From Monosiga brevicollis MX1 (taxonomy: Eukaryota; Opisthokonta; Choanoflagellata; Craspedida; Salpingoecidae), in assembly GCF_000002865.3 (NCBI RefSeq), contig NW_001865040.1, positions 2,200,715 to 2,221,861 of the forward strand: 21,147 bases of DNA, in the 5' to 3' direction. A program made the translations under genes and the position numbers. The notes below the pieces were generated by a model. The model saw only the letters and a program-made list of their open reading frames with translations. It was not told the DNA's origin and ran no database searches. Below, one piece after another: positions 1,517 through 21,147 of the stretch. Every line of letters begins with the position of its first letter. Positions within the stretch are counted from its first letter, which is position 1.

Positions 1517-3605
1517 ATGGCCACCGCCGATCTTGCTGGGCCCACCCCTCCCGTGCACCAGGACCCCGACTTTAAATCGATCAGCGATGACGAGGAGGAG
1601 GGGCCGGCGGCCATGGCCCAGCACCTGCGCACACGCCGCCGCCTGGACATGCGCACCTCGTCCACGGGTGGTCTCTCTGAGGCCTCCTCTCTCCCCTCCA
1701 GCCCCGATGCCGACGAGCACGGAGAGAATCAAGAACACGAACATACCCAGGACGATGAGTGCTCCACTCAAACGAACCTTGAAGAGACACCAGCCAATTC
1801 TACGCTGGGCATGGTGGTGCCATGTCCTGGTGACGTGAGCATTGGCCCACCAAACGAAGACGAACTGCCCACGTTTCAAGACATGTGGGTTATCCCCGGC
1901 TTTCAGCGCCTGCTTTGCAAGAGTGTCCACGCACAACCGCGCCGTGCCCATCGGGATTCCGACTTTAACGAGAATGGTGTGTCCCCCCTGCTCCCCTTCT
2001 CCTACCGCGTCCCCGTCTTGCGTTGTATCCCGTCGCCCTCTGCCTCTGAATTACCCTTTTCAAGCGCTCATCCCCACTTTGCCTTGCTTGGCCTCTTGCA
2101 TCTGGGTGGCTCGGCTGTCCGGCTGAAACAACAGCCAGCTCTGTCGGAGGGGACTCGCCCCGTCCATCGCTTGACGGGGCTGCTGCCCCTGGAACGCGGC
2201 GACGCGCCAATAGTGGCGCCTCCTCGATTGTCTCTGCCCTCTCATTCCGATCCGCAGACACGACCTCCCGTGGTTCCCTCAGTGAGGGCAGCGTCCGCAA
2301 ACCACGCAACACCCTACTGCGCCGCCTCTCCTGGAAGCGCACGAAGAGCAACTACAATATGAAGGAAGCCCTCAAGCAGAGCGAAGCCTGTGGTTCAGCC
2401 AGCGACAGCGACTCCACCATCAAGCCCGTCACTAAGAACGACAAGCCTAAGCGTCGCAAATCGTTCCTGCGCCGTAAAAAGGGCCTTGATGCCAACACAG
2501 CCGTCGAGAGTGCCGCTAAAAAGTTTGAGGAAGAAACCACGACCTCACGCCGCCGCCACCTCTCCGGCTCGGACGAGGCCGAGGTGACAGGCCTCTCTCT
2601 CATCACATACATCAACTCGCTCAAAGAGCTCGAAAGCATGAAAGCTCAGTGTTTCGCCGACGACTGCGATGAGCAATTCACCTCCTTGGCCGAGCTGCAA
2701 GAGCACATGCTCACTCTCCACGTCCTGCCACGCATTCAGCAAGTCCCAGACTACGTGTACCTTTTCCACGAGGACCTTCCATTCTTCAACCAGCGAGACG
2801 TCGTGGCTAGCATCACCTATCATGAGCGCGATTCGCCCCTGGCCCAATTTTACCTCAACCAGCCCATCTTCAATATCTCTTGCTTTCGGCCAGGTATGTT
2901 TTCAATGGAGCCTGACCCCCCCTTCCCCACTCTTCTTTTACGTCCAACCGCTGCATGCTTGACACTCGTCAGCACTCATCACCTGACCCTTCATCCCTAA
3001 TCCGTGCCCCTAGTGGAGGACAACACCACCACAGTGAGTCTGTCCGACATTGACAATCCTTGCCGTGACAGTCGGACGGAGAAGATTCGCCGCTTCATTG
3101 GCAGCGGCCTTCAAGTCTCAATCCGACGCAAGTGCCTCTACGTGACGCGCCTATCGCGCAATCCCGTCTTTCTCAAGGTTCGAGACTGGTTTCGCTGACA
3201 CAAGAAAGAAACATGACCCCCGTCATCCCTCTCAACCTCAATGTTTTCTTCTCAGAACTATCAAAGCCCGTCAACAGTCTCAGACTCAATTCTGTTGCGT
3301 GAAAACGGGGAGCTTCCCGACGGCGCCGAAGTCTGCCTCTTCGACTACCAAGTGTTCTCCAAAGAGATTGCTCGCATGCCTGCCGAGCTGGCCCTCAAGA
3401 TGGCGACGGTCTCTCTCGCCTTTGTAAGTGACTTGCCTTTAAGGGCAACCTCCTCCCCGTACATTGTCCTTTCTCATCACGCAATCCTGTTTAGGTGCGA
3501 ACGGGTGAGTTTGACGACAAAATTCCTTGCTGGATCCGCATTCGAATGGGAGATGCCTTGCGCATGTGGGAAACCTTGACCCATTCAACCCAAGATCACG
3601 CGTAA
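1517..3605 (+). CDS. C2H2 zinc finger plus Smad-like MH2 domain protein
   Basis: Five exons: 1517-1976, 2135-2893, 3014-3177, 3256-3423 and 3495-3605, in-frame, 553 residues. Donors are GTGTGT, GTATGT, GTTCGA and GTAAGT; acceptors are ACAG, CTAG, TCAG and TTAG. Residues 1-250 are acidic and Ser/Pro-rich, probably disordered. A basic patch (KPKRRKSFLRRKKG, about 254-267) could be a nuclear localisation signal. A C2H2 finger has C326, C331, H344 and H349 (C-x4-C-x12-H-x4-H). Residues about 373-548 align with Smad MH2 from end to end: a SITYHERD start, RRFIGSGLQV like RRHIGKGV, LSRNPVFLK like LSDSAIFVQ, CLFDYQVFSKEI like LKIFNNQEFAALL, and a C-terminal IPCWIRIRMGDALRMWETL like the PCWIELHLNGPLQWLD strand-helix. 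There is no MH1 domain and no C-terminal SSxS; the protein ends STQDHA. Known MH2 domains form trimers and bind phosphoserine peptides; whether this one does is unknown. The ATG at 1517 has A at -3 and G at +4. Least certain is the first intron's acceptor at 2134 (2064 would break the phase). Confidence 0.85.
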
Positions 3606-4055: not shown

Positions 4056-7000
4056 TTAGTGACTGAGCTCCAGGCTCAGAGAGACTAGGTTGGTCGCGAC
4101 CACATCTTCAGCTCGTTCGAGAAGAACGCAATGTGGCATCCCTGACCCTGGGGGCAGGTAGTGGAAAATCGCGGCGCACAAGCCGTGGTGAGTGCAGGCC
4201 TGGGTACACTCTTCTACGGTGCGACCGTCGCGCAACACGTCCAACTGAGCGTCTGTCTGAAAGGCATTGCCAAAGCGCAAGGATTCCCCAAGGGGCTGAG
4301 ACCCCGAGGCGCGGAGTAAAGTGCCCGACGGTGTCCAGCGTGGATCAAAGTCAAACTGTGCTCGGCATTGCAATGAGGTGGAGTGCGAGCTTGTCGCTAC
4401 GCCCGCCTCACCCACGTCCGCGAGAAGCTTACAGCGGGCTCGTGCGCCTACGAGCCAAAAGAAGGCTCCGGTGCATGAATTTCGACGTAAGCAGGCTGCT
4501 TCGCAGCCGGATTGGTCCAAGTCGTACAACTCCTCCAAGAGCGCTGTCGCTACAAAAGCCGTGGCAAAGCGCCGTGGCGTGTGGGAAACGTTGGTCAGGC
4601 CAGGAACCGTCAAGACACCCTGATGTGCCACCTCGCACCCACGCCACGTTTTTCGAGTCAAAGATAGTGAGTTTGACTCTGTTGAGACCCCATCGGGTGT
4701 TCCAAGATCAGAGAGGAGATGGCATCGTGTTTCTCCAGCTTTTGTGAGCCAGAAGAATGCACCGCGGCAAATGGCCGATGTCTCGCAGGCTGCACAGCAT
4801 GCCTCGAGCGACACCTGTTTGAGTTCAGCCTCGTACTTCTCTGGAGTGAAGGCGGTCGAGAAGCGCCGCCGGTCGGTTTCGCTGTCAAAAGTGATGCTAA
4901 AGCCGGGAAGGCTAGGCGCCGTTGGTGCCGCTGTCTCTGACGTTGTTCCAGGAGTTGCCATGTTGTCAGTCGTTGTGAACGAGCTTGAAGTTATGGAGGC
5001 CATTGGCTCCGAACGCGAGCTGCTGGAGGTGGAGGTGGAGGAGGTGGACGTGGAGGTGGACGTGAAGGTAGAAGTAGAGGTCGAGGTCGAGGTAGCGGTC
5101 GAAGTAGCGGTAGAGTTCAAAGGCAGCGGCTGCGTCGCGGTGGCGGTGAGACACTCGAAAACATAAGCCGGTCGCTCCACATGCGGGGAAAACAACGCAA
5201 CAGTGCTTGAGCTGAGCAAATAAGCGCGAATGCTCGAGCCCGCTGCCATGGTAAATTGCACCCGAGTTCGTGGCCCCGGTAGAGTGCCCCCGTACACCCA
5301 GGAGCTCGAGCCATTGTCAGCATGACCCGGCAGCAACAAGGGGCTTGCCATATGGAGCAGGTTTGAGCCGGCCACATGCAACGACAGTTCTGCCGCCAAG
5401 CCACCATCCCAGGATCGTGTTTCGATGACGAGTGCGACAGAGCAAGTTGTTGGCGTTCGGTTGTGCTCCACCTGCCAGTTGACTGCCGCGACTATCGGCA
5501 GGCCCAAGTAGGCCTGAGCCCACAACCGCGTGTCGGGCTGATTCAAGGCGCCATCGCCGTTGAAGTCCAGGCTTGCGGCATTAAACAGCTTATTCAGCTG
5601 CTGCAACCCGCTGAGGTGCGTTGTTGGCAAGACCATTTGTTGCAGGGGCGTGCTCCGAAACACGAGAGCTGCCAGGTCCCGTAGATCTAACTCACAGTCT
5701 CCGTTGGCATCACCCCAAACGTCTACGGGGCAGCTGGCAGCCGCGGCACCGTTGCATTCATTGCGAGTAATAATGTCATAAGGTGTGCATGATACGTCTC
5801 GCGGACGTCGCGCCAAAGTGGCGGCCTCAAGCTGCAGGCTACTGTTAAGGACATTTGTATACGTGCGGCTCAACAGGCCGGGCCCCACGAGCTCCAAAAC
5901 CTCGGCATGAAGGGCTGCGTGAGCAGCCGCGTCAAGTTCCACCCACGCCATCTCCAGAACTGTGCCTGCATCGGCCACAATGACTACAACCTCTAGCTCG
6001 CAGTCGCGAAGTGCAAACTCCAACCAGGCTCCAGCCTGGCCAACGCGTGCACTCGCATTGGCCAGTGCCTCACATGAAGCGGACAGAACAAAACGCAGTA
6101 TCGTGCCAGCGCTCAGCTCTTCATCCATGTAGAGCCACAGTGGAACCGTCACTCTATTGGTTGTCATGTCGTTTGTCGATCCAATCCACAGCCCACGCTG
6201 CGGCGGCGCGCCGAGAGCTATTGAGAAAGATCCATTCGAGAAAAAGAGGGAAAAAAAAAAAAAAAAAAAAAAAAAAGTCCAAGGCCCGCGTTAGAGTGTC
6301 AACGTTGCCTTCCTCATACATGCCAGAGGGCCAGAAAGAGAAATCGAGAAAGCTCGCCATGCACCACGGGTAGGCACACAATACAGGGCACAAACAAAAC
6401 CAACCTGGGACTTGCACGCTTGCAAATGGACTGCCTCGAAATTGAATGTCCACTTGCACTGAGCCAGCACGGGGTGACATCACCTGGCAGTGGCCTGTCT
6501 CGGCATTGACACCAACGACTTCAGGTTCATGGCTGCGGAAGGACAAGAGCTGCGGCAGTAGGGCTGTGCCATCCCGCACAAAGAAGGTATGGGGTAAGAG
6601 GACCCCCTCAGCAAACAAGACGTGGTCAAAGACCACCTGCTGCGCTGGCGAAACACTGGCCCCATGAACGGCGACCACGGCCCGTGGGGAGCTGCTCACG
6701 CGGGTTTGCGCGATATTGCTCATGGAGACACCGAGAAAATATGCAAACGACACTAAGCCTGGCGCCTCTGGCGTGACCACATGGCCACGATAGCCATAAG
6801 TGGGTTCATGTTGGAAGGACAACCGCGCTCGATTATCATAGGTGGTCATGCCCAGCTCGCCGGCTGCAATTCCTCCAAAGGCCAATGCTAGACGTTCAAG
6901 CGATGGCCAGCAAAGTCATGCAAGGGAAAAGGGAAAGAAACAACCCATTTGTGAGACTGTTGAACAACAGGCCATAGCAGCAGATTCAATCTTTTTCGGG

Positions 7001-10000
7001 TGGCTGTGCGCCTACACACTTACCGTCAGTGGCGGGGCCGGGGCTGAGGGCCAGAGTCGACCCATTGCTGAGGTTGGCAACACAAAGCAACATGGCACTT
7101 TCATACACGCGGCGGCCGGTACGATCGACTCCCGCTGGTGCCAACGTGGTTGCTTCACTTTCTAGATGGGGGTCCGATTGCGTCGCAGGCCAGTGCACCA
7201 TGCGCAAGGACAGTCCAGTGCTGGCAACGACGTGCACCGTGTGTGACGCTCGTAGTAAAGGGGCGTCTGTGTGCACAAAATGGACAGTATGTTGGCCCGT
7301 GCTGACACCAGAAAAGCAGAGGGAGGTACCACTTCGGCGTAACGCCGAGGCATTGAATGCAATAGACACGAGCGCGCTCGCGTCTGACGCCGGACGTCCG
7401 CCATCGTAGAGCAACTGGACGCGAAAGCAACGGCTAATCGCGGTACCAAAGCTGACCAACAAGTCTCCCGGCACGGTGACAATTGAAGTAGAATCCATGG
7501 GGGCTTCCACCCCAGAGTCGAGGTCATATGCAATGACCTGTAGGGCGACTGCGCGAGCCGGAGCCACGGACAAGTTGACCGCATTGGTCGACGCCACAAT
7601 TCCGCCGCACGGCACTGGTTGCATCAATGCCACAGTCAGAGTGGCCGTTTGAGCCATTGCCACCGGCACCCGCGCCTCGATTGAAAGGTTCCGGGTGGCT
7701 AGGACCGCTAGAGCAGAGCTAGATACGGTTGTTTCCAGTTGATGCATTGAAAGAGGCACGATGGACCAATCTTGAAGCACCAGATAGGGTGCTAACGTGG
7801 CTGTGGTCTCGTTGTCTCGCAATACCGTGCTGTAGGGCGAGGGTGGTAGGGATGCTGAGAGATCCCACTGCTGTGCAGCTTCGCCCCGAGCGCTAAACGC
7901 AGCCTCGACGACGCTGGGAGTAATGAGGGCCATGTTCAAGCCCAAAATTGTGGCGGGAACGGGCAAGATGGACCGAGACACGACCGAAGTCCACAAGCTG
8001 TTTCCCTGACGGAGTGCCAATGTCAGATTACTTTGGACGGTCGCGGTCCACACATGGGGACCGCTGCGCCAAGCTGCGGCGTCAGGCAAGCAGTCGGCCA
8101 GTGAGCAGCGGTGCGTCACATCGACCATCATCCCGTCAACGTGTGCCAAGATGCGCAAGCGTTGCGGAGCTCGTCGTGCACCGTTTGTACAGGTGTCATC
8201 TGACCGCCAGCCCCAGATGGGGCGACTGAACCCGCGATCAGGCACCAACGATACGTTCTGCGGTTGGTGCACGCGAACTTGGACGGTGACGTTGCGTCCG
8301 AAATCGCCCGTGGCCAAGCGCGTCGTTGCCGTCAGCTGCAAATCAAAGCTGTCACTGAGTGTGTCGGGCCAAAGCACTACCTCAGCGCAGCTCGCAGCTT
8401 GAACGGCTGCCGCAGGATGCGCCGTGCAAGTCATGGCCTCGGTCGACATGTTGGTGGTACGACCGTCTGTTGTCAGAGCCCGCAGTCGCAGGCTCAGGCG
8501 CCGAGGTTGGTGCTGCAGAGCACCGTCATTCAAGAGCGCGTAGTGGCTGGGCACGGGGATCAGCAATGAGGTCGCATCGGCAAGCTCGGTGTCCAAGACA
8601 CGAATGTTGCAGTTCGTTGAGGTACAGTACGATGAAAGAGGTGCCAGTGCCCCGCCCCCGTCACTAGCGGTCCACAGATGGAGGGCGAGTGGAAGAGGCA
8701 CACTGCTAGCTGCATCCATAGGTTTACTGACGGTCAATGCCACGCGCAAAAGGTCGAGGACATGGATAATCTGTCGTGTTATGGTGCTCGAAGCCGTGGC
8801 AGCCGTGGTCTGGCGCGCCGAGAAGACGACCCAACAATGCGTACTGTTTCGCACAAACCGGCTTGTTCCTGTCCAGCCAGTCGCCAGCTGTGCATCGCGG
8901 AGTTGGAGTACGCAGGGTACATCCAGCGCCCCACTGAGAGTGATGGGCCCGTGTGACCAAGCATGGGCTCCGATTTGCACGGCAACCACGTCACCAGCCC
9001 GTGCCGGCTGCAAAGGGGTGGTTAGAGAAAGCTGAGCTGCTTCTGACACGGGAAAACCCGGCTGCGTAACGTCGTGGCTGAGCCTGAGAGGTGGGCAGGC
9101 GATTTTCTGGCCTGAGAGCGTGTCGATCAAGTCAGGCGTCACAACGACCTCACGTCGATCTGGATGGCTCATGTTTGCCCAAGTTGAGGGATCGGCGCCA
9201 ACTGTGGCCGACAACGCGGCCGTCAGCTCCACTGGCGTGAGCTGGAAGACACAGAGGCCGTCATTGTCAAGGCGACATGTTTGCAGCTCCACGCCACCCA
9301 CTTGCATGGCCAGTGGACGCATGACGAGACTTGTCGCCGCTGGGTGATATGCATGGCCGATCAGGGTGATCTTGTCAACGGCACTGTGTGCAGCAACCAC
9401 CGGGGCCGCCCAATGGCAAGCCAGACGTAAATCGAGGGGAGCAAGTGACCCACTCAGCATCAGCTCCCGAATGACCGGCACATGACCTGTGGCCCGAATC
9501 GGCACAGGAAGAGTCAGCACATCACCCGCATGGCCACCGGGACTCGCAGGCATTAGATCCACCGACTCGACCTGAATGGCCCTTGAGTTGTTTGAAGCCA
9601 ACAACAGAGCCGCGCTCGGGCCTAGTTCGAGTTGGATATCAGGCCAAGAAGGCGGCTGGGCTTGTAGCAAGCGCTGGTGAGCCGCTGCCATGCGTGCAGC
9701 TAAGTTGGCCAGACGCTCGCTGGTCGTCGCCAAGCGAGTCTGCAAAGCGGCCGTCGCATTGAACGTCGGCACTACGTGCAGACGGCTTTCCAACTCGGAT
9801 GCCAGTGTTTTGCTGGTGTGCACGAGCTGTGAAGCGTCCACGGCGAGGCCGTCGGTGCCACGTGTCAAGTTGGCTAACAGAACAATGGGAGTGGATGTAT
9901 TCAAGGAAGTCCAAGCGCAGGACATATTCATCTGATCCGTGGCATTTTGGGCTGCTGTTGCTATGGCCGCAAAGCCAGCTGTAGTGCGAGACGTCAGTCG

Positions 10001-13000
10001 CGTAACTTCTGCAAATGGATCGATGCCTGCCTCGGCGGCCAGGAATAACGAGGTATTGAGGGTAGCTGCGGCTTCGTTTAGGCCTGATAGGACTGCAGAA
10101 GCGTTGTTCAAACGACTCACATCTGCTTGCAAAACTGCCTCATCGAACTCCTTCAGCAGTGGAAGATGTGCAACCTGTGACTGGGCAGCCCTTGTTGTGG
10201 CATTGGCAGCTCGGTTTGCAGCCACAAGTGTAGCCAGGTCGGCAGCACTGTGGTTAGCAAGGACTGCGTTGTCCGGATTCACAGGCGGTGCCAATGCAAC
10301 CAGCCATTCGCCCATGGCTGCAACCGTGCGCTCCGTCTGATCGACATCACTGGCTGCCACACGAGAGAGGTTGTGAGTCTGAATGGCCTGGGCGTCAAGT
10401 GCGTCCACTGCTGCATCGAGCGTAACTGCTGCAGCCGGGATGGCCTTGTCCAGAAGGTGTGCGCTGTTGTTGAGGCGAACTTGCATGCTGGCGCCATCAA
10501 TACGCAGTGCGGCTGCTTCAGCCTCGACTTCTGACAAGAGGTTGGTGGTGTTGTTCAGCGACCCTTGGACTTGCACCAGCGCTTCGACGCTGGCAATATG
10601 GTGCTCTTGCAGCCTGGAAATATGAGCAAAAGTGTCGCTTATTTGAAGACGGCTGGCCTCGAACCGATCAACTAAGGTGGCGATGCCAAGCGTCGAGTGG
10701 TTGAGGCTAGCAAAGGCATCAGCAGAGTCGGTTGTGGCATTATCCAAAGCGATCTGGATGAGGCCACGTTGGGCTTGCACCTGAGCCAGCTGCCGGTGCA
10801 ATCCGGAGACCGCCAGAGGGAACGCGCGTGCCTGCACCTCGGCATGTAGGGCTCTATCAAATTTCGTCTGAGCGGTCGCGAGCGCAGACCTGTTGAGGCT
10901 GTTGCTGGCTTCCGCGAATAAGGCGGCCCACTGAGCAGCCAGCGTCTCGAGTGTGGCAGCAGTGTGTGCAACTTCCCACGCCGTTTGAGCTTGGTGTCCC
11001 CCAAGAGCCTCCAGGGACAAACGTAGCCGATCCGTCGCCAAAATCATCGTCACAAAAGCCGGGGCCTGCCAGGTGGTGACTGCTCTGCGAAGGGTGCTGT
11101 TGCCTGCGTCCACCGTCGTTGCCAACGTGGAGAGCTCTTGGGCAGTCACTGTGAGGGACGTCAAGGCAGATTCGCGTGCAGCCTGAGCTGCAACCAGGTC
11201 TGAACGCACTGCATCGAGACCCATCATTGCAGTCATGTTCACATTTCCAAGTGCATTCGAAGCGTTGTGCCACAAGTCGCGCAAGTGTTGCGAGCACGCA
11301 TTGCACGTCGCGCAGCCCACAAATGGAATCAGGTTGATGGCGGTTGCGACACACTGATCGCATCGTGGCCCTGCCACCCCGGGTAAGCATCTGTGGGCCG
11401 CCACAAGAACACGTGTCATCGGTCAGCCAGCCGTGACTGGATGGATGATCTCATATCTTTAGCATGGGAAGGGGTAGACTTACAGGCAGGTACCAGACAG
11501 AGGATCGCAGGCTCCGCGGTGAAGAGTTCCAGCTGGATCGCAGGCACAGGCGCGGCACCCAGACGCGCTCAGGTTGAAATGGCCAAACGCGCAGCGATTG
11601 CATCTACAACAAGTCCCAGTCGTCCCAGTGGTCAATATGTGGGGGCAAAGCCGTTGTGATGCGGATGTGGTGACCAATCAAGCATGGGCAAGAACTTCGC
11701 GTGCCACCCCGACAACAACAGCCCATATGCGCACTCGGCCCACAAGCCCGCTCCATGATCGATCAGCTTACCTTCTATCGTTAGCAACGCCGGGCCGACA
11801 CGTGCAGGCCCCCTGGGCCTCATCACAGATCGGGGAGACGGCCCCGAGGGTATGGCAGTCACAATCTTGACAATCACCAGCGGCTGAGAGAGCTGCGGCA
11901 CGAGCGCCACGAGCGCACTGTGCAGCGTCCACTTGGTTCAAGGGATAGGCTAGGGCTGAGCAACGGTGTGTGGTGCGTAAGCTGGCCGTGGCTGTGATGG
12001 CCGCTACAGCAGGGGCCACTGCAGGCTCCAGAGCAGCTTCCATGGCAACAACTGCGCGTGGTACCAGCGCGAGGGCGTCCCAAGCACAAAAGGAACCCAT
12101 CTCTGCATTGCACACAAGCGTGATAAGGACGCTCCCTTGGATCGTGAACTCCAGCGCATCGGCCAGAATGGTGTCACAAAAGTCATCATTAAGACATGGG
12201 GCCAGATTTGTTGTTCGGGCGGCAATGGCAAAGTCGTTGAACTCGATGCGCACGAGCGCGCTTGCTTGTGAGGCATGGCGCAGAACCAAAGTATGCGAGC
12301 CGCTGCTGGCAGTCAGGGGCAGGGCCACATGAATAGGGAGATGGCTGCGTACAAATGCCAACCCCAGGCCTGAATACTGCATGGTTGCGTTGGGATTGCT
12401 GGGTACAATGCGTTGGATCACGCTCGCTGCGTTGATAGCATCCTCAATCTGATACAATGAGGTGGCCACAACGGGCGCAAAGGTGCCGGCTGAACAGTGA
12501 TCACAGGAATGGCCTTGGATGTAGTGCCCACGACACGAGCATGTTCCGTTGGGTGCACACACAGAGCTGGCGCTAGCGCCGGGCAGACAGGTGCAGCCCG
12601 CGCACGGCAGTGAAGTGGTTGCATTGGTTGATACAGGGGTGTAGCCAGTGGCGCACTGGTCGCAGTGCTGCCCAGTCATGCCTTCCCGACACGTGCACTG
12701 GCCTGTTTCCTGCAGCAATAAGAGACCGGTGTGCAGTCCAGGAATGAGTCGAGCATGGCGGGAGCCTTTAAAAATGAAAAAAAAATATCATCATTCACTC
12801 CGAAGACCAAATCTCTCGACACAAATGTGTCATGTGCATCCGGCGGACAAGCCAAGTTTGAGGCTCGAACTATTCTGATTGGTTGCCGCTGGCCTACCTG
12901 ATCGCAGCTTGAACCGATCGCACCGCGTGGATCACAGGCGCAGTCGAGACATCCATCTGCATGTGCCGTGGATAGATTGTAAGAGCCGGTGCGACACGTA

Positions 13001-15432
13001 TCACACTTGAGACCAGTGACACGGGCTTTGCAAAAGCACTGTCCAACGCCAAGGGCCTGTACGTCATCCTCCTCCTGTACGCAGGACTGCACGCCACGAT
13101 TCAGGAAATTGACACGTGAGATGGATCGCATCACAGCAGGTGATACACGTCTGGCTGGAGGATGAAGTGACGTCGCTGGTGCCACACCTGATTGGAAGCA
13201 CCTGCTCGCACGCAGTTGCACGCTGAGCAAGGCGTGGGCGCGTGGCGGCTCACACCCTCGGGTCGGAAAAAGCCTGATAGACAGCGCTCGCAGTTGATTC
13301 CTGTGGGCACGTTTCACCGATGTCAGTACCATGACATAACATTTCAGCCAGAGGCTATTTGGCTGCGCCTCAACCTGCACCGACCTGCAGTATGATTGGC
13401 ACAGGCTACACAGCGTCCGGCTCCCACATACTGGCCATCTACATTAAGTGAGGAACCTTCCACACTCGGGTCATAGATGCATGAAGCAGCATGTCCGAAG
13501 CACTCGCATGGTTGACATGCGTGGGTGGCATTGCTCGTTGCCGGGGCCCAGGGTTGCTTGAGTACGTGCTGACCGGTGGCATCAAGGACCCCTGTCCAGG
13601 ATATACAAGCGTAAGTGTTGATGATGGGGATGATCGTGGGTGGGGCCAGCTCGGCAGATGAGATCGCACCTTGGTTGAAAAGGGGTAAACAAGACTGGCA
13701 AGACCGGCCTTGGGTATCGTGCTGGCAAGCACAAATACCCTCGTCCAAATCACAGCTATCAGCATGACCATGACAGTTGCAAAGCCCCACCATGTCCACT
13801 TCAAGGAGGGAGTGATGGTAAATAGGCGCATCTACAAGGGCGGCAGGAGGCTAGAGACAGTCCAGGTATAGAAATGTGGACGTAGAGACGCCAGCAAAAA
13901 AAAAAACAGAAACACATGCATGAAATGGGCAACGTCGGCATGAGGACACAAAGTCGCTGTTGTCACCAGACTGGACGGAGGTGCTGACCACGAAGCGATG
14001 CAGCTGCAGAAGACGAAGGCGGATGTGATCGGCCGTCACAAACGCGCGGACGGCATCCACCTCAAGACTGCGGTAGTCACTTGTCAGGCCTAGCGACGGG
14101 TCACGCCGTGGCATGAGACGCGGTCCGGTTTGACGCACGGGAACAAACGTGAACGCGAAAGGTAGTCGATGTACCTACTCGGCAAGGAGAGGAGAGCTAG
14201 CACAACAGGGGCTGGCGCATATGGATCGAGCTGTTCTTGCACGCACTCGGCCTCGGCGGTGCCTGTGGAGGTGATGCCGGACAGCGGCTGCATGCCAAAC
14301 GAGGCTATGATTTGTCAAGGCAAAAGAGCACCGGGTGAGATCAACGAGGCCAAGCCAGCGGTTCTGCGCACATGTGGCATTCTCACAGGATATGGGGGCA
14401 AAAAGCAAAAGGCCTGGGACGTGCCTTGACAGTCGCGGGCCATGTACCGCCAGGGCGTGAAGGAGTGACCCCCATCTGTCGAGCGCTCGATAACCATGGC
14501 TGCAGGCTTGGGCGAGTTGAAACGAATCAGGACATAGGCAAGGTGGTACTGAAAACTGGACTCGGCTGAATTCTAGGGGCGATGCGTCAGCGTCAGCGTC
14601 AGCAATGAGATATAAGGGTAAGAATTTGAGTGAGGGTGACAATGACCATCGTCAGAAGAATGAAGAACGTGAAAACCGGGAGAGCGCAGGGGTGGAACCA
14701 GAGGCCAAGGCCAAGGTCGAGGCAGAGACAGAGACAGAGACAGAGAGTCTCAGCCTCTTCGCACAAAAGGGAAAGGAACAGGGTGAGGAGCACACGCACG
14801 GGATCAAGGCTGATTGTGACGTTGATGTCGTCCATGCCAGGTGGACCTTGCCAGAAAGAAGATAGGTCGCCATCAAGGATGTGGGAAGGCGGGTGGAAGG
14901 TGTCTGGGTGTGCGAGACTGCAGCTGTGTCCGCAGCTGTAGGTCAGCTGGGTGAGGCCTGCACAAAGACCGCCATTAGGCACAGTCAAGGCAAGACTTGG
15001 TCGTTAAAGAGGGGAGCCAAGCACTGATGCGGGAGCTCACCGGCGACGAGGCAGACATTTTCGTCTACGGGAGCAAATGCGGGGGGCGTCGAGGAGTGGT
15101 GCTGCTGCGCATAATCCAATGCATCATGCTCGAGCAGGTTATAGGGTGGGACTGCCGACTCGCTGCTGGACCGGGCACCACAGGTCTCGGTTGCGATGGC
15201 TCGGGCGCCATGGCGTAAGGAACCTGCAGCAATGACCCAATGGATACTAGAGGGATGAGGGCTTATGAAGCTGTGCAGCAGCGCTGCCCATGCCTGTACG
15301 AGTTGAGCGCCAGTTCCAAGTTCGGCGAGCTTTACCGGCTTGTGGTGGCAGGAGCAGTGAGCTGTAGACCAGATCTGCTTGCAAAGCCAGCAGAACAAAC
15401 AGGCAAACGCCTGCGCTCAGACACCCATCCAT
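4056..15432 (-). CDS. Giant secreted laminin beta-like chimeric extracellular matrix protein
   Basis: Fourteen exons (minus, 5' to 3'): 15432-15336, 15223-15041, 14957-14800, 14572-14425, 14304-14243, 14174-13967, 13831-13385, 13300-13188, 13086-12898, 12709-11772, 11603-11484, 11390-7024, 6887-6405, 6217-4056. They sum to 9,675 bases, exactly 3,224 codons plus stop, with all phases matching. Order: signal peptide (about 1-23; CLFVLLALQA core); laminin LN (about 34-302; TCG, PAAMVIERSTDGG, ADHIRLRLLQLH); five LE modules (303-613); laminin IV-B/LF-like domain (about 614-810; ATSLYQIEDA then a late RC...QC pair, as in laminin beta); two LE modules (818-916); a helix-rich Ala/Leu/Asn region about 550 residues long (917-1465), comparable to the laminin coiled coil; beta-rich modules (1466-2434); BIG2-like (about 2435-2503); two dockerin/EF-type loops (2674-2685, 2722-2733); Ser/Thr linker (2871-2921); three apple/PAN-like repeats (2942-3224). 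Many N-x-S/T sites; no C-terminal membrane span, so probably secreted. Start ATG has G at -3 and +4. Intron 4 appears to use a GC donor. Module boundaries after 1466 are approximate; function (matrix or adhesion) is inferred. Confidence 0.9.
5022..5117. repeat. GAGGTG/GTCGAG-type minisatellite coding the Thr/Ser linker
   Basis: Six-base degenerate units on the plus strand read on the minus strand as alternating Thr-Ser codons (about residues 2871-2905 of the laminin-like protein). The tract separates the beta-sandwich/dockerin-like part from the apple-like repeats and looks like a mucin-type, O-glycosylatable spacer. Length variation here would stay in frame if units are gained or lost as six bases. 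Confidence 0.8.
6251..6276. repeat. A26/T26 homopolymer inside intron 13 of the laminin-like gene
   Basis: On the transcribed (minus) strand it is an uninterrupted run of 26 T in intron 6404-6218, upstream of the TTTCTCAATAG acceptor. It acts, or is tolerated, as an extended polypyrimidine tract. Prone to sequencing and replication slippage, but it does not touch the coding frame. Confidence 0.9.
14305..14424 (-). other. Probable GC-AG intron (intron 4 of the laminin-like gene)
   Basis: No GT donor restores both frame and the LN-domain alignment here. The junction AAG|GCACGT is close to the GC-donor consensus, and the acceptor is AATCATAG. Splicing in phase 1 gives ARDCQASFGM, matching the laminin beta pattern YDCESSFPG. 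Use of the phase-0 GTGAGA donor at about 14393 with this acceptor would instead run into a stop. Confidence 0.65.
14722..14748. repeat. GAGACA repeat in intron 3 of the laminin-like gene
   Basis: Tandem GAGACA units inside the 227-base intron 14799-14573. The same intron also carries three GCGTCA copies at about 14584-14603 near its acceptor. Non-coding; on the minus strand the tract is CT-rich. Confidence 0.75.
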
Positions 15433-19293: not shown

Positions 19294-20686
19294 TTAGGCG
19301 GCCTTGGCATGGGGGTTGCCAACCTGGTGCATGTTGGAGAGGGTGTCACCCAAGCAAGACCAGTAACCGCGGACGTCATAGGGCAGGCCGTGCTTCTCGA
19401 ACAAGGCCTTGACGCGAGGGGAGATTTGCGGGTGACGGAACTGGGGCATGCAGGGAAAGAGGTGGTGCTCAATCTGAAAGTTGAGGTAGCCCATCCACCA
19501 GTTGCAAAGGGGTGTGCCGGCAATGTTGGTGGTGTGCTTGGCGGCGTACTCGACCCAATGGAGGTACTCGTCGGCCTGGCTCACGGGCAGATGGGTGTGG
19601 GAGAGGGCAAAATTGGTAAAGATGTAGGCGGCCCCAATCATGTCGTACAAGATGTAGAGACCGATGGCTTGAGCCCAAGTGAAGTCACGAAGGACGACAC
19701 CAAAGATGACCAGGTAGCGCACGGCAAGAGTGAGGAGCTCGAAGCGCTTCTTGGTGCGGATCATGTAGCGCGGGTGGAGATAGATTTGCCAGCCGAGGGC
19801 CACAAGGAGGCAGGACAGGGGGATGAAGCAAAAGGCTTGGGCACGCAGCCAGAGCTTGACGAGGGGATTGCGGGCCTTGGCGGCGATGACAGAGTTGAAG
19901 GCAATCAGGGGAAGAGTCTCCAGATCCACGTCGTGCTGCAACTTTTGCGGGGTCGCATGATGACGGTTGTGCTGAGAGCGCCACCAACCGGCCGACATGC
20001 CACAACCAATGCCATAAAGGGCAATTTGGAGACCACGATCCAACATCACACGGCCCGTAATGCTGTAGTGACCACCCTCGTGCATGAGCCAGCCACAGCG
20101 ACCTTGGACGATCGCCAGCATCACCACGCCGAGGGCCGTGAAGAGACCCCCCTGCCACACAAGATAGGCACCGAGGACGTGCATGCCGATGATTTCAGCA
20201 AAGCGCAAGGCAATCTCGCCACGCGAAGGCTCAAAGAGGCCCTCCTCCTTGAACTGACGACGCAGGGCAGCATAATCCTTGGTCAGTTCCTCGCGGTTGT
20301 TGTAGCCACGCTCGACCATGACGTCCTTGGGGGCCGGGCGGTTGGGCAGGGACTTGAGCAGATACTGCGCGCGCTTGCTGCGCAGATGAAACTCCTCAAA
20401 GGCCTCTGTAGCATCGCCATTGTTCACCAAGAACTTGATGACCGAGCCACCTGGAAGGCCCATCAAACGGCGCATGAGATGACAGGTCTACCGGGCAGAG
20501 CCAAGGCAGCCGAGGCAGCCGAGGGGCGGAATGCTGGGTTTGTGGGGTCAAGGGGAAGAAGCGCCATCTCAAACCAACTGTACCTGGGTGCTTAAAGCCA
20601 GAGACATCGTAAAGCTTGCCATTGATCAGCACCTCCTGAACTTCCGACGACGCCTGGTCGGCGCTCGACTTGGTCGACGACGGCAT
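19294..20686 (-). CDS. Cytochrome b5-fusion front-end fatty acid desaturase (delta-5/6/8 type)
   Basis: Two exons, 20686-20584 and 20450-19294, joined by a 133-base intron (GTACAG...CCAG, phase 1) that splits the heme motif HPGG; 419 residues. The N-terminal cytochrome b5 domain keeps both heme histidines (H33 of HPGG and H56 in EEFH). The desaturase domain has the three His boxes: HEGGH (158-162), HNRHH (195-199) and QIEHH (360-364). Gln for the first His of the third box is the mark of front-end desaturases, which insert a double bond between an existing one and the carboxyl end of long-chain acyl substrates in the endoplasmic reticulum, with electrons passed through the fused b5. Hydrophobic stretches (about 120-150, 240-255, 275-315) fit the usual membrane spans. 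It is slightly shorter than the usual 440-450 because the b5 N-terminus is brief. Regiospecificity cannot be read from sequence. Start at 20686 chosen as the last ATG before the b5 domain. Confidence 0.95.
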
Positions 20687-20971
20687 GACGAACGAGATAG
20701 ATGGCTGGCTGCAATCACAATTTGGTCCAAAGCACATCGATGAGCCATGGTCTTGAATCCCAACCACTTCCCACCAGGGCAATACAACCACCATGCCATC
20801 CAGAGCAACCCAGAGAGACCAGATCCAGCCGAGAATCAGCCCAAACCGCCTCCCGACCCCGGTCTCAGACGACAGACAGCCATCACGCACCTCGTTGAAA
20901 GAGAGAGAGAGAGAGACAAGCGAGAAAGTGAACTCAAGTGGTGCACTCTGTTCTTTGTTCTGTGCTTTGCT
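20687..20971. other. Upstream flank of the desaturase gene
   Basis: Probable promoter/5'UTR of the minus-strand desaturase. The desaturase frame stays open upstream of 20686 (further ATGs near 20739 and beyond) but its composition is not protein-like. It includes a (GA)n run at 20900-20916. No TATA box recognised. Confidence 0.4.
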
Positions 20972-21100
20972 TCTCTCTCTCTCTCTCTGCTTTCTCTCTC
21001 TCTGCTTTCTCTCTCTCTGCTTTCTCTCTCTCTCTCTGCTTTCTCTCTCTGCTTTCTCTCTCTCTCTCTCTCTCAAACTCTCTCTCTCTCTCTCTCTCTT

Positions 21101-21147
<47 letters not shown>
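20972..21147. repeat. Long (CT)n microsatellite with GCTTTCT interruptions, to right edge
   Basis: Nearly pure CT with regularly spaced TGCTTTCT interruptions in the first half (to about 21060), then almost perfect CT to the end of the window, which may be an assembly or contig limit. The shorter GA run at 20900-20916 is complementary to it. Confidence 0.95.

Follow-up and report, generated by a model that had tools for sequence, protein, structure and literature searches.

A zinc finger-MH2 gene of the choanoflagellate Monosiga brevicollis with an L3 loop of the same length as that of Drosophila Expansion

The window, by which we mean the whole 21,147-nucleotide stretch of Monosiga brevicollis MX1 DNA that was analysed (contig NW_001865040.1), carries at 1517-3605 of its + strand a five-exon gene in one frame, and the spliced product of 553 amino acids sets a single C2H2 finger ahead of a C-terminal MH2 domain. 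This is very probably the zinc finger-MH2 gene already reported for M. brevicollis, to which we matched it by description, and its product very probably works in a non-Smad mode. The MH2 domain appears nearer to Drosophila Expansion than to the Smads compared when bit scores are used, and percent identity does not separate them. The finger-MH2 finding itself is real but already known. The sequence-only reading needs a correction on this point: the architecture is not new, as the cited portion of PMC3169577 (2011) already states that the M. brevicollis MH2 is accompanied by a zinc finger (C2H2), unlike all known Smads, and refers to Srivastava et al. 2010 for the Monosiga MH2 and C2H2 protein. 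What we add is that Expansion is the best-scoring PDB match, that L3 is short, and that parts of the Smad phospho-relay are missing. The features of the gene are collected in Table 1.

Table 1. Features of the zinc finger-MH2 gene, in positions of the window
Feature	Position	Strand	Remarks
Exon 1	1517..1976	+	start codon and acidic N-terminus, aa 1-153
Intron 1, provisional	1977..2134	+	from frame-keeping splice scans
Exon 2	2135..2893	+	holds the Ser/basic region, the C2H2 motif and the first strands of MH2, all in one frame
Two basic clusters, each with an RRxS site	2296..2484 (clusters 2296-2346, 2434-2484)	+	NLS-like or membrane-binding-like as judged by eye
Single C2H2 zinc finger motif	2650..2721	+	aa 326-349
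MH2 domain	2806..3545	+	aa 378-534 in the Pfam match; split by three introns
Intron 2	2894..3013	+	GT-AG, phase 1, 120 nt
Exon 3	3014-3177	+	
Intron 3	3178..3255	+	GT-AG, phase 0, 78 nt
Exon 4	3256-3423	+	
Intron 4	3424..3494	+	GT-AG, phase 0, 71 nt
Exon 5	3495-3605	+	stop included
Short L3 loop	3501..3524	+	8 residues, flanked by FVR and PCW
Closing PCW strand, C-terminal helix (by analogy), stop	3525..3605	+	no Ser-x-Ser tail

The spliced protein matches Pfam MH2 (PF03166) with an E-value of 4.6e-14 and 53.5 bits, where the cut-off is 25, and the match spans profile positions 4-172 of 174, so that it is nearly full length. The sequence-only reading had claimed an MH2 domain spread across four exons with agreeing phases and standing without MH1 in a unicellular relative of animals, and all of this was borne out: the introns within the domain are GT-AG with junction phases of 1, 0, and 0, and no MH1 is among the matches that Pfam gives for the complete protein at E up to 1. 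The whole protein also matches Pfam IRF-3 at 6.2e-5, which is below the cut-off, and we rejected an IRF identity because we read this match as kinship within the Smad/FHA superfamily. A scan of NCBIfam, which is built for bacteria and archaea, gave no match. When the genome was searched by family (39.47 Mb, 57 contigs), one MH2 place was found, and it is the gene in the window. A genome protein search at E up to 10, which scores the best candidates only and does so exon by exon, gave four matches, and all four are pieces of the zinc finger-MH2 gene.

The finger precedes the start of the Pfam MH2 match by 28 residues and lies in the same exon as the first MH2 strands (exon 2). Its pattern, C-x4-C-x3-F-x5-L-x2-H-x4-H, fits the consensus C-x2-4-C-x3-F-x5-L-x2-H-x3-5-H, and when the protein was shuffled 100,000 times, the full consensus appeared in none of the shuffles and a bare C2H2 in 93. 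Scanned with Pfam as part of the whole protein, the finger matches Zap1_zf1 (1.7e-4, 21.7 vs a cut-off of 27.2) and zf-C2H2 (0.0055, 17.5 vs a cut-off of 25.2), and when the exon-2 frame is scanned alone the values are 7.8e-5 for Zap1_zf1 and 0.0021 for zf-C2H2, again with both below cut-off. The single C2H2 finger that had been proposed ahead of MH2 is thus upheld by the motif and the shuffles, with a Pfam zf-C2H2 score that stays below cut-off. The acidic N-terminus that had been described is also there, with a net charge of -18 over aa 1-153, and this region is probably disordered.

The MH2 relatives with which we compared the window protein were PDB chains. In a PDB search at E up to 1, Drosophila Expansion (4r9p) tops the 16 sequences listed, with an E-value of 4.2e-8 and 35.4 bits; Mad comes after it at 6.3e-5 and 24.9 bits, and the Smads also rank below Expansion. 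We also used a six-sequence MH2 test with the window protein, Expansion, Mad, Smad3, Smad4, and Smad7, where the sequences of Expansion, Mad, and Smad7 were trimmed to the part that the PDB search had shown. Here the window protein and Expansion are reciprocal best matches at 37.6 and 36.1 bits, and the runners-up score 27.2 bits (Mad) for the window protein and 23.0 bits (Smad3) for Expansion. When Expansion is searched against the whole PDB, its best Smad is Smad2 at 26.2 bits, and Smad2 is outside the six-sequence set. Identity to the window protein in the six-sequence test is 25% for Expansion, 24% for Mad, 22% for Smad7, and 21% for both Smad3 and Smad4, and in a three-sequence alignment Mad (32%) is above Expansion (26%). 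Of the four Smad-family queries, two come out nearer to the window protein and two nearer to Expansion: Mad (27.8 vs 13.7 bits) and Smad7 (19.3 vs 12.1 bits) score the window protein higher, and Smad3 (25.5 vs 22.7 bits) and Smad4 (23.1 vs 15.7 bits) score Expansion higher. With one Expansion sequence and an unrooted comparison, a clade formed by the two proteins and ancestral states shared by them look the same.

The clearest trait that the window protein and Expansion have in common is the length of L3. Counted from FV[KR] to P[CI]W, L3 has 8 residues in both (TGEFDDKI in the window protein) vs 14 in all four of the Smad-family sequences (Mad, Smad3, Smad4, and Smad7); PMC4388265, in the portion cited here, uses its own count of 11 vs 17. 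All four Smad-family sequences have GWG and RQ in L3, and neither the window protein nor Expansion has them. The window protein ends in WETLTHSTQDHA, and the Ser-x-Ser phospho-acceptor of R-Smads is absent from this C-terminus. The domain had been called a Smad-type MH2, and while MH2 stands, the Smad-type label is not the most fitting one, as the score is nearer to Expansion and the Smad L3 residues and phospho-acceptor tail are absent.

In the Smad mode, the tail is phosphorylated by a receptor and then fits into the L3 pocket of a neighbor, so that a trimer forms, and MH1 binds DNA. This mode, which is partly restated in the cited text of PMC4388265, is without three of its parts in the window protein. 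Because the Ser-x-Ser tail and the GWG and RQ of L3 are absent, a Smad-style phospho-relay seems unlikely for this protein. The same portion of PMC4388265 describes Expansion as eluting as a monomer and as acting outside TGF-beta signalling, and its authors link this to an added helix and a changed L3.

The likeliest and most economical role for the window protein is that of an interaction adaptor, which we favor with some reserve. In such an adaptor, MH2 would bind a partner without the protein's own tail being phosphorylated by a receptor, and the basic RRxS-bearing stretch, which by eye could be NLS-like or membrane-binding-like, would direct the protein to the nucleus or to a membrane. Since a lone zinc finger seldom confers specific DNA binding, the finger would offer another surface for binding, and its partner would probably be a protein.

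The protein may also be a membrane or cortex adaptor like Expansion or the myosin-linked MH2, where the basic stretch would bind membrane and MH2 would recruit partners, and we regard this as a credible possibility that stops short of being probable. Consistent with it are the score, which is nearest to Expansion, the action of Expansion in chitin deposition at the apical membrane (described in the cited portion of PMC9894549), and the myosin-borne MH2 of another choanoflagellate, S. rosetta (PMC3942036, in the text cited), but the chitin synthase family PF03142 has no match in the genome. Among chitin synthase families this search covered PF03142 alone; three candidates were scored, exon by exon, and 4 of the 14 control genomes were positive. 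With PF03142 giving no matches, we rejected a chitin-synthase link drawn through Expansion, of which chitin synthase is the partner system according to the same part of PMC9894549.

A pre-Smad transcription regulator, in which the finger would replace MH1 in DNA binding and MH2 would recruit cofactors, is a narrower version of the adaptor reading and not an exclusive alternative to it, and we think it unlikely. The C2H2 motif does stand a short way ahead of MH2, and the basic clusters are, by eye, a candidate nuclear localisation signal, but there is only one finger, it scores below the Pfam cut-off, and the Smad L3 residues and tail are missing.

The weak point of the gene model is intron 1, which is provisional. 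Its donor at 1977 belongs to the best-scored pair, and the acceptors at 2134, 2149, 2257, and others are all frame-keeping. The ATG of exon 1 is the first in the open frame 1436-2362, and this frame has the top codon score among the three forward frames across the exon; its codon scores remain near or above zero (lowest -0.01) up to about 2119, which is inside the provisional intron. Among the 15 best pairs listed for intron 1, each alternative ends at or before 2481, upstream of the finger, and thus the finger and MH2 are unaffected by the choice among them. It is quite improbable that the model is an artefact in which exon 1 and the exons from exon 2 onward belong to separate genes, as the ambiguity of intron 1 and a frame that is still coding-like within it would allow, but the finger and the start of MH2 share one exon, so that the finger and MH2 stay joined whatever becomes of exon 1.

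Elsewhere in the window, laminin EGF domains are found in three open reading frames of the - strand (11771-12787, 12679-13443, and 13347-13850; best 6.1e-16), and they are followed on that strand by an open reading frame of 1478 aa (6986-11422) that has no Pfam match; 6986-13850 is perhaps one laminin-like gene. Also on the - strand are a 744-aa open frame at 4056-6290, in which a PAN domain (PAN_4, 1.2e-7) occurs together with a repeat stretch rich in Ser/Thr, and a fatty acid desaturase at 19294-20487 (PF00487, 3.5e-35). CT-rich simple repeats lie on the + strand at about 660-790 and about 20900-21147, where the other strand reads as Arg/Glu-rich runs.

The genome family search was working, with 143 matches for kinases and 17 for Sec1. 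The two exon pieces of an Unc18 gene of this genome that were compared with PDB 2XHE are identical to it at 44 of 44 and 54 of 54 residues (98 of 98 together); the cited portion of PMC3693963 gives that entry as the M. brevicollis Munc18-syntaxin 1 complex, and the genome is accordingly that of M. brevicollis or of a very close relative. For the TGF-beta pathway the search covered MH1, TGF_beta_GS, and TGF_beta, and as these families were without a match in the 14 control genomes as well as in this one, the result is uninformative. Viral relatives were rejected: 247 stretches of viral contigs matched one of two peptide patterns, and by tblastn none of them encoded a relative.

In the literature, the reports of choanoflagellate MH2 domains that the sequence-only reading had mentioned do exist (PMC3169577 and PMC6040629, in the portions cited). 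The cited text of PMC6040629 places the propeptide, GS, MH1, and MH2 domains of choanoflagellates in separate proteins and gives none of them in eukaryotes outside Choanozoa, and that of PMC6792448 describes MH1 and MH2 as being of choanozoan origin and the Smad architecture as metazoan-specific. As far as the cited portions of PMC2657120 and PMC3500652 go, Smads or pathway components were not found in M. brevicollis. The corresponding portion of PMC3942036 (2014) mentions just one MH2 for choanoflagellates, carried by a myosin; the Monosiga finger-MH2 had been in print since 2011 (PMC3169577). Among the matches listed from the open-licence literature, no paper joins a choanoflagellate MH2 with Expansion, which does not show that none exists.

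TGF-beta signalling is regarded as an invention of animals, assembled from older parts. The gene in the window shows the MH2 part in a unicellular relative and in another setting, and this is already in print. The Expansion-length L3 without phospho-relay parts makes an order of events testable, with the domain first and the phospho-switch later. Tentatively, and with the odds against it, the window MH2 and animal Expansion may both retain an ancestral, short-L3, non-Smad form of MH2 that predates animals, with the Smad relay arising later; identity in the three-sequence alignment, which favors Mad, counts a little against this reading. If it is true, the phospho-serine relay of Smads arose later through the lengthening of L3 and the gain of a tail, and the Expansion-type MH2 is the older form and no protostome novelty.

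Among known systems, the closest is the published M. brevicollis MH2 and C2H2 protein, which we liken to the window protein by description and from which, on the text of PMC3169577 cited here, no difference is known. Smads and Mad have in common with the window protein a match to the MH2 profile and a C-terminal MH2, but the window protein has no MH1 match, an L3 that is six residues shorter, and no Ser-x-Ser tail. Expansion (CG13188; N-alpha-MH2), a non-Smad MH2 protein, is equal to it in L3 length and likewise has no GWG or RQ, with identity of only 25%. The MH2 of Expansion is N-terminal in the account cited from PMC4388265, whereas that of the window protein is C-terminal and ends the protein, which therefore does not fit the Expansion/Rebuf plan of an N-terminal MH2 followed by a variable C-terminal region. 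The myosin III-like protein described in the cited part of PMC3942036, from S. rosetta and the sponge Oscarella carmela, is, like the window protein, found in a choanoflagellate and has a non-Smad MH2 at its C-terminus, and it carries a myosin motor where the window protein carries the finger.
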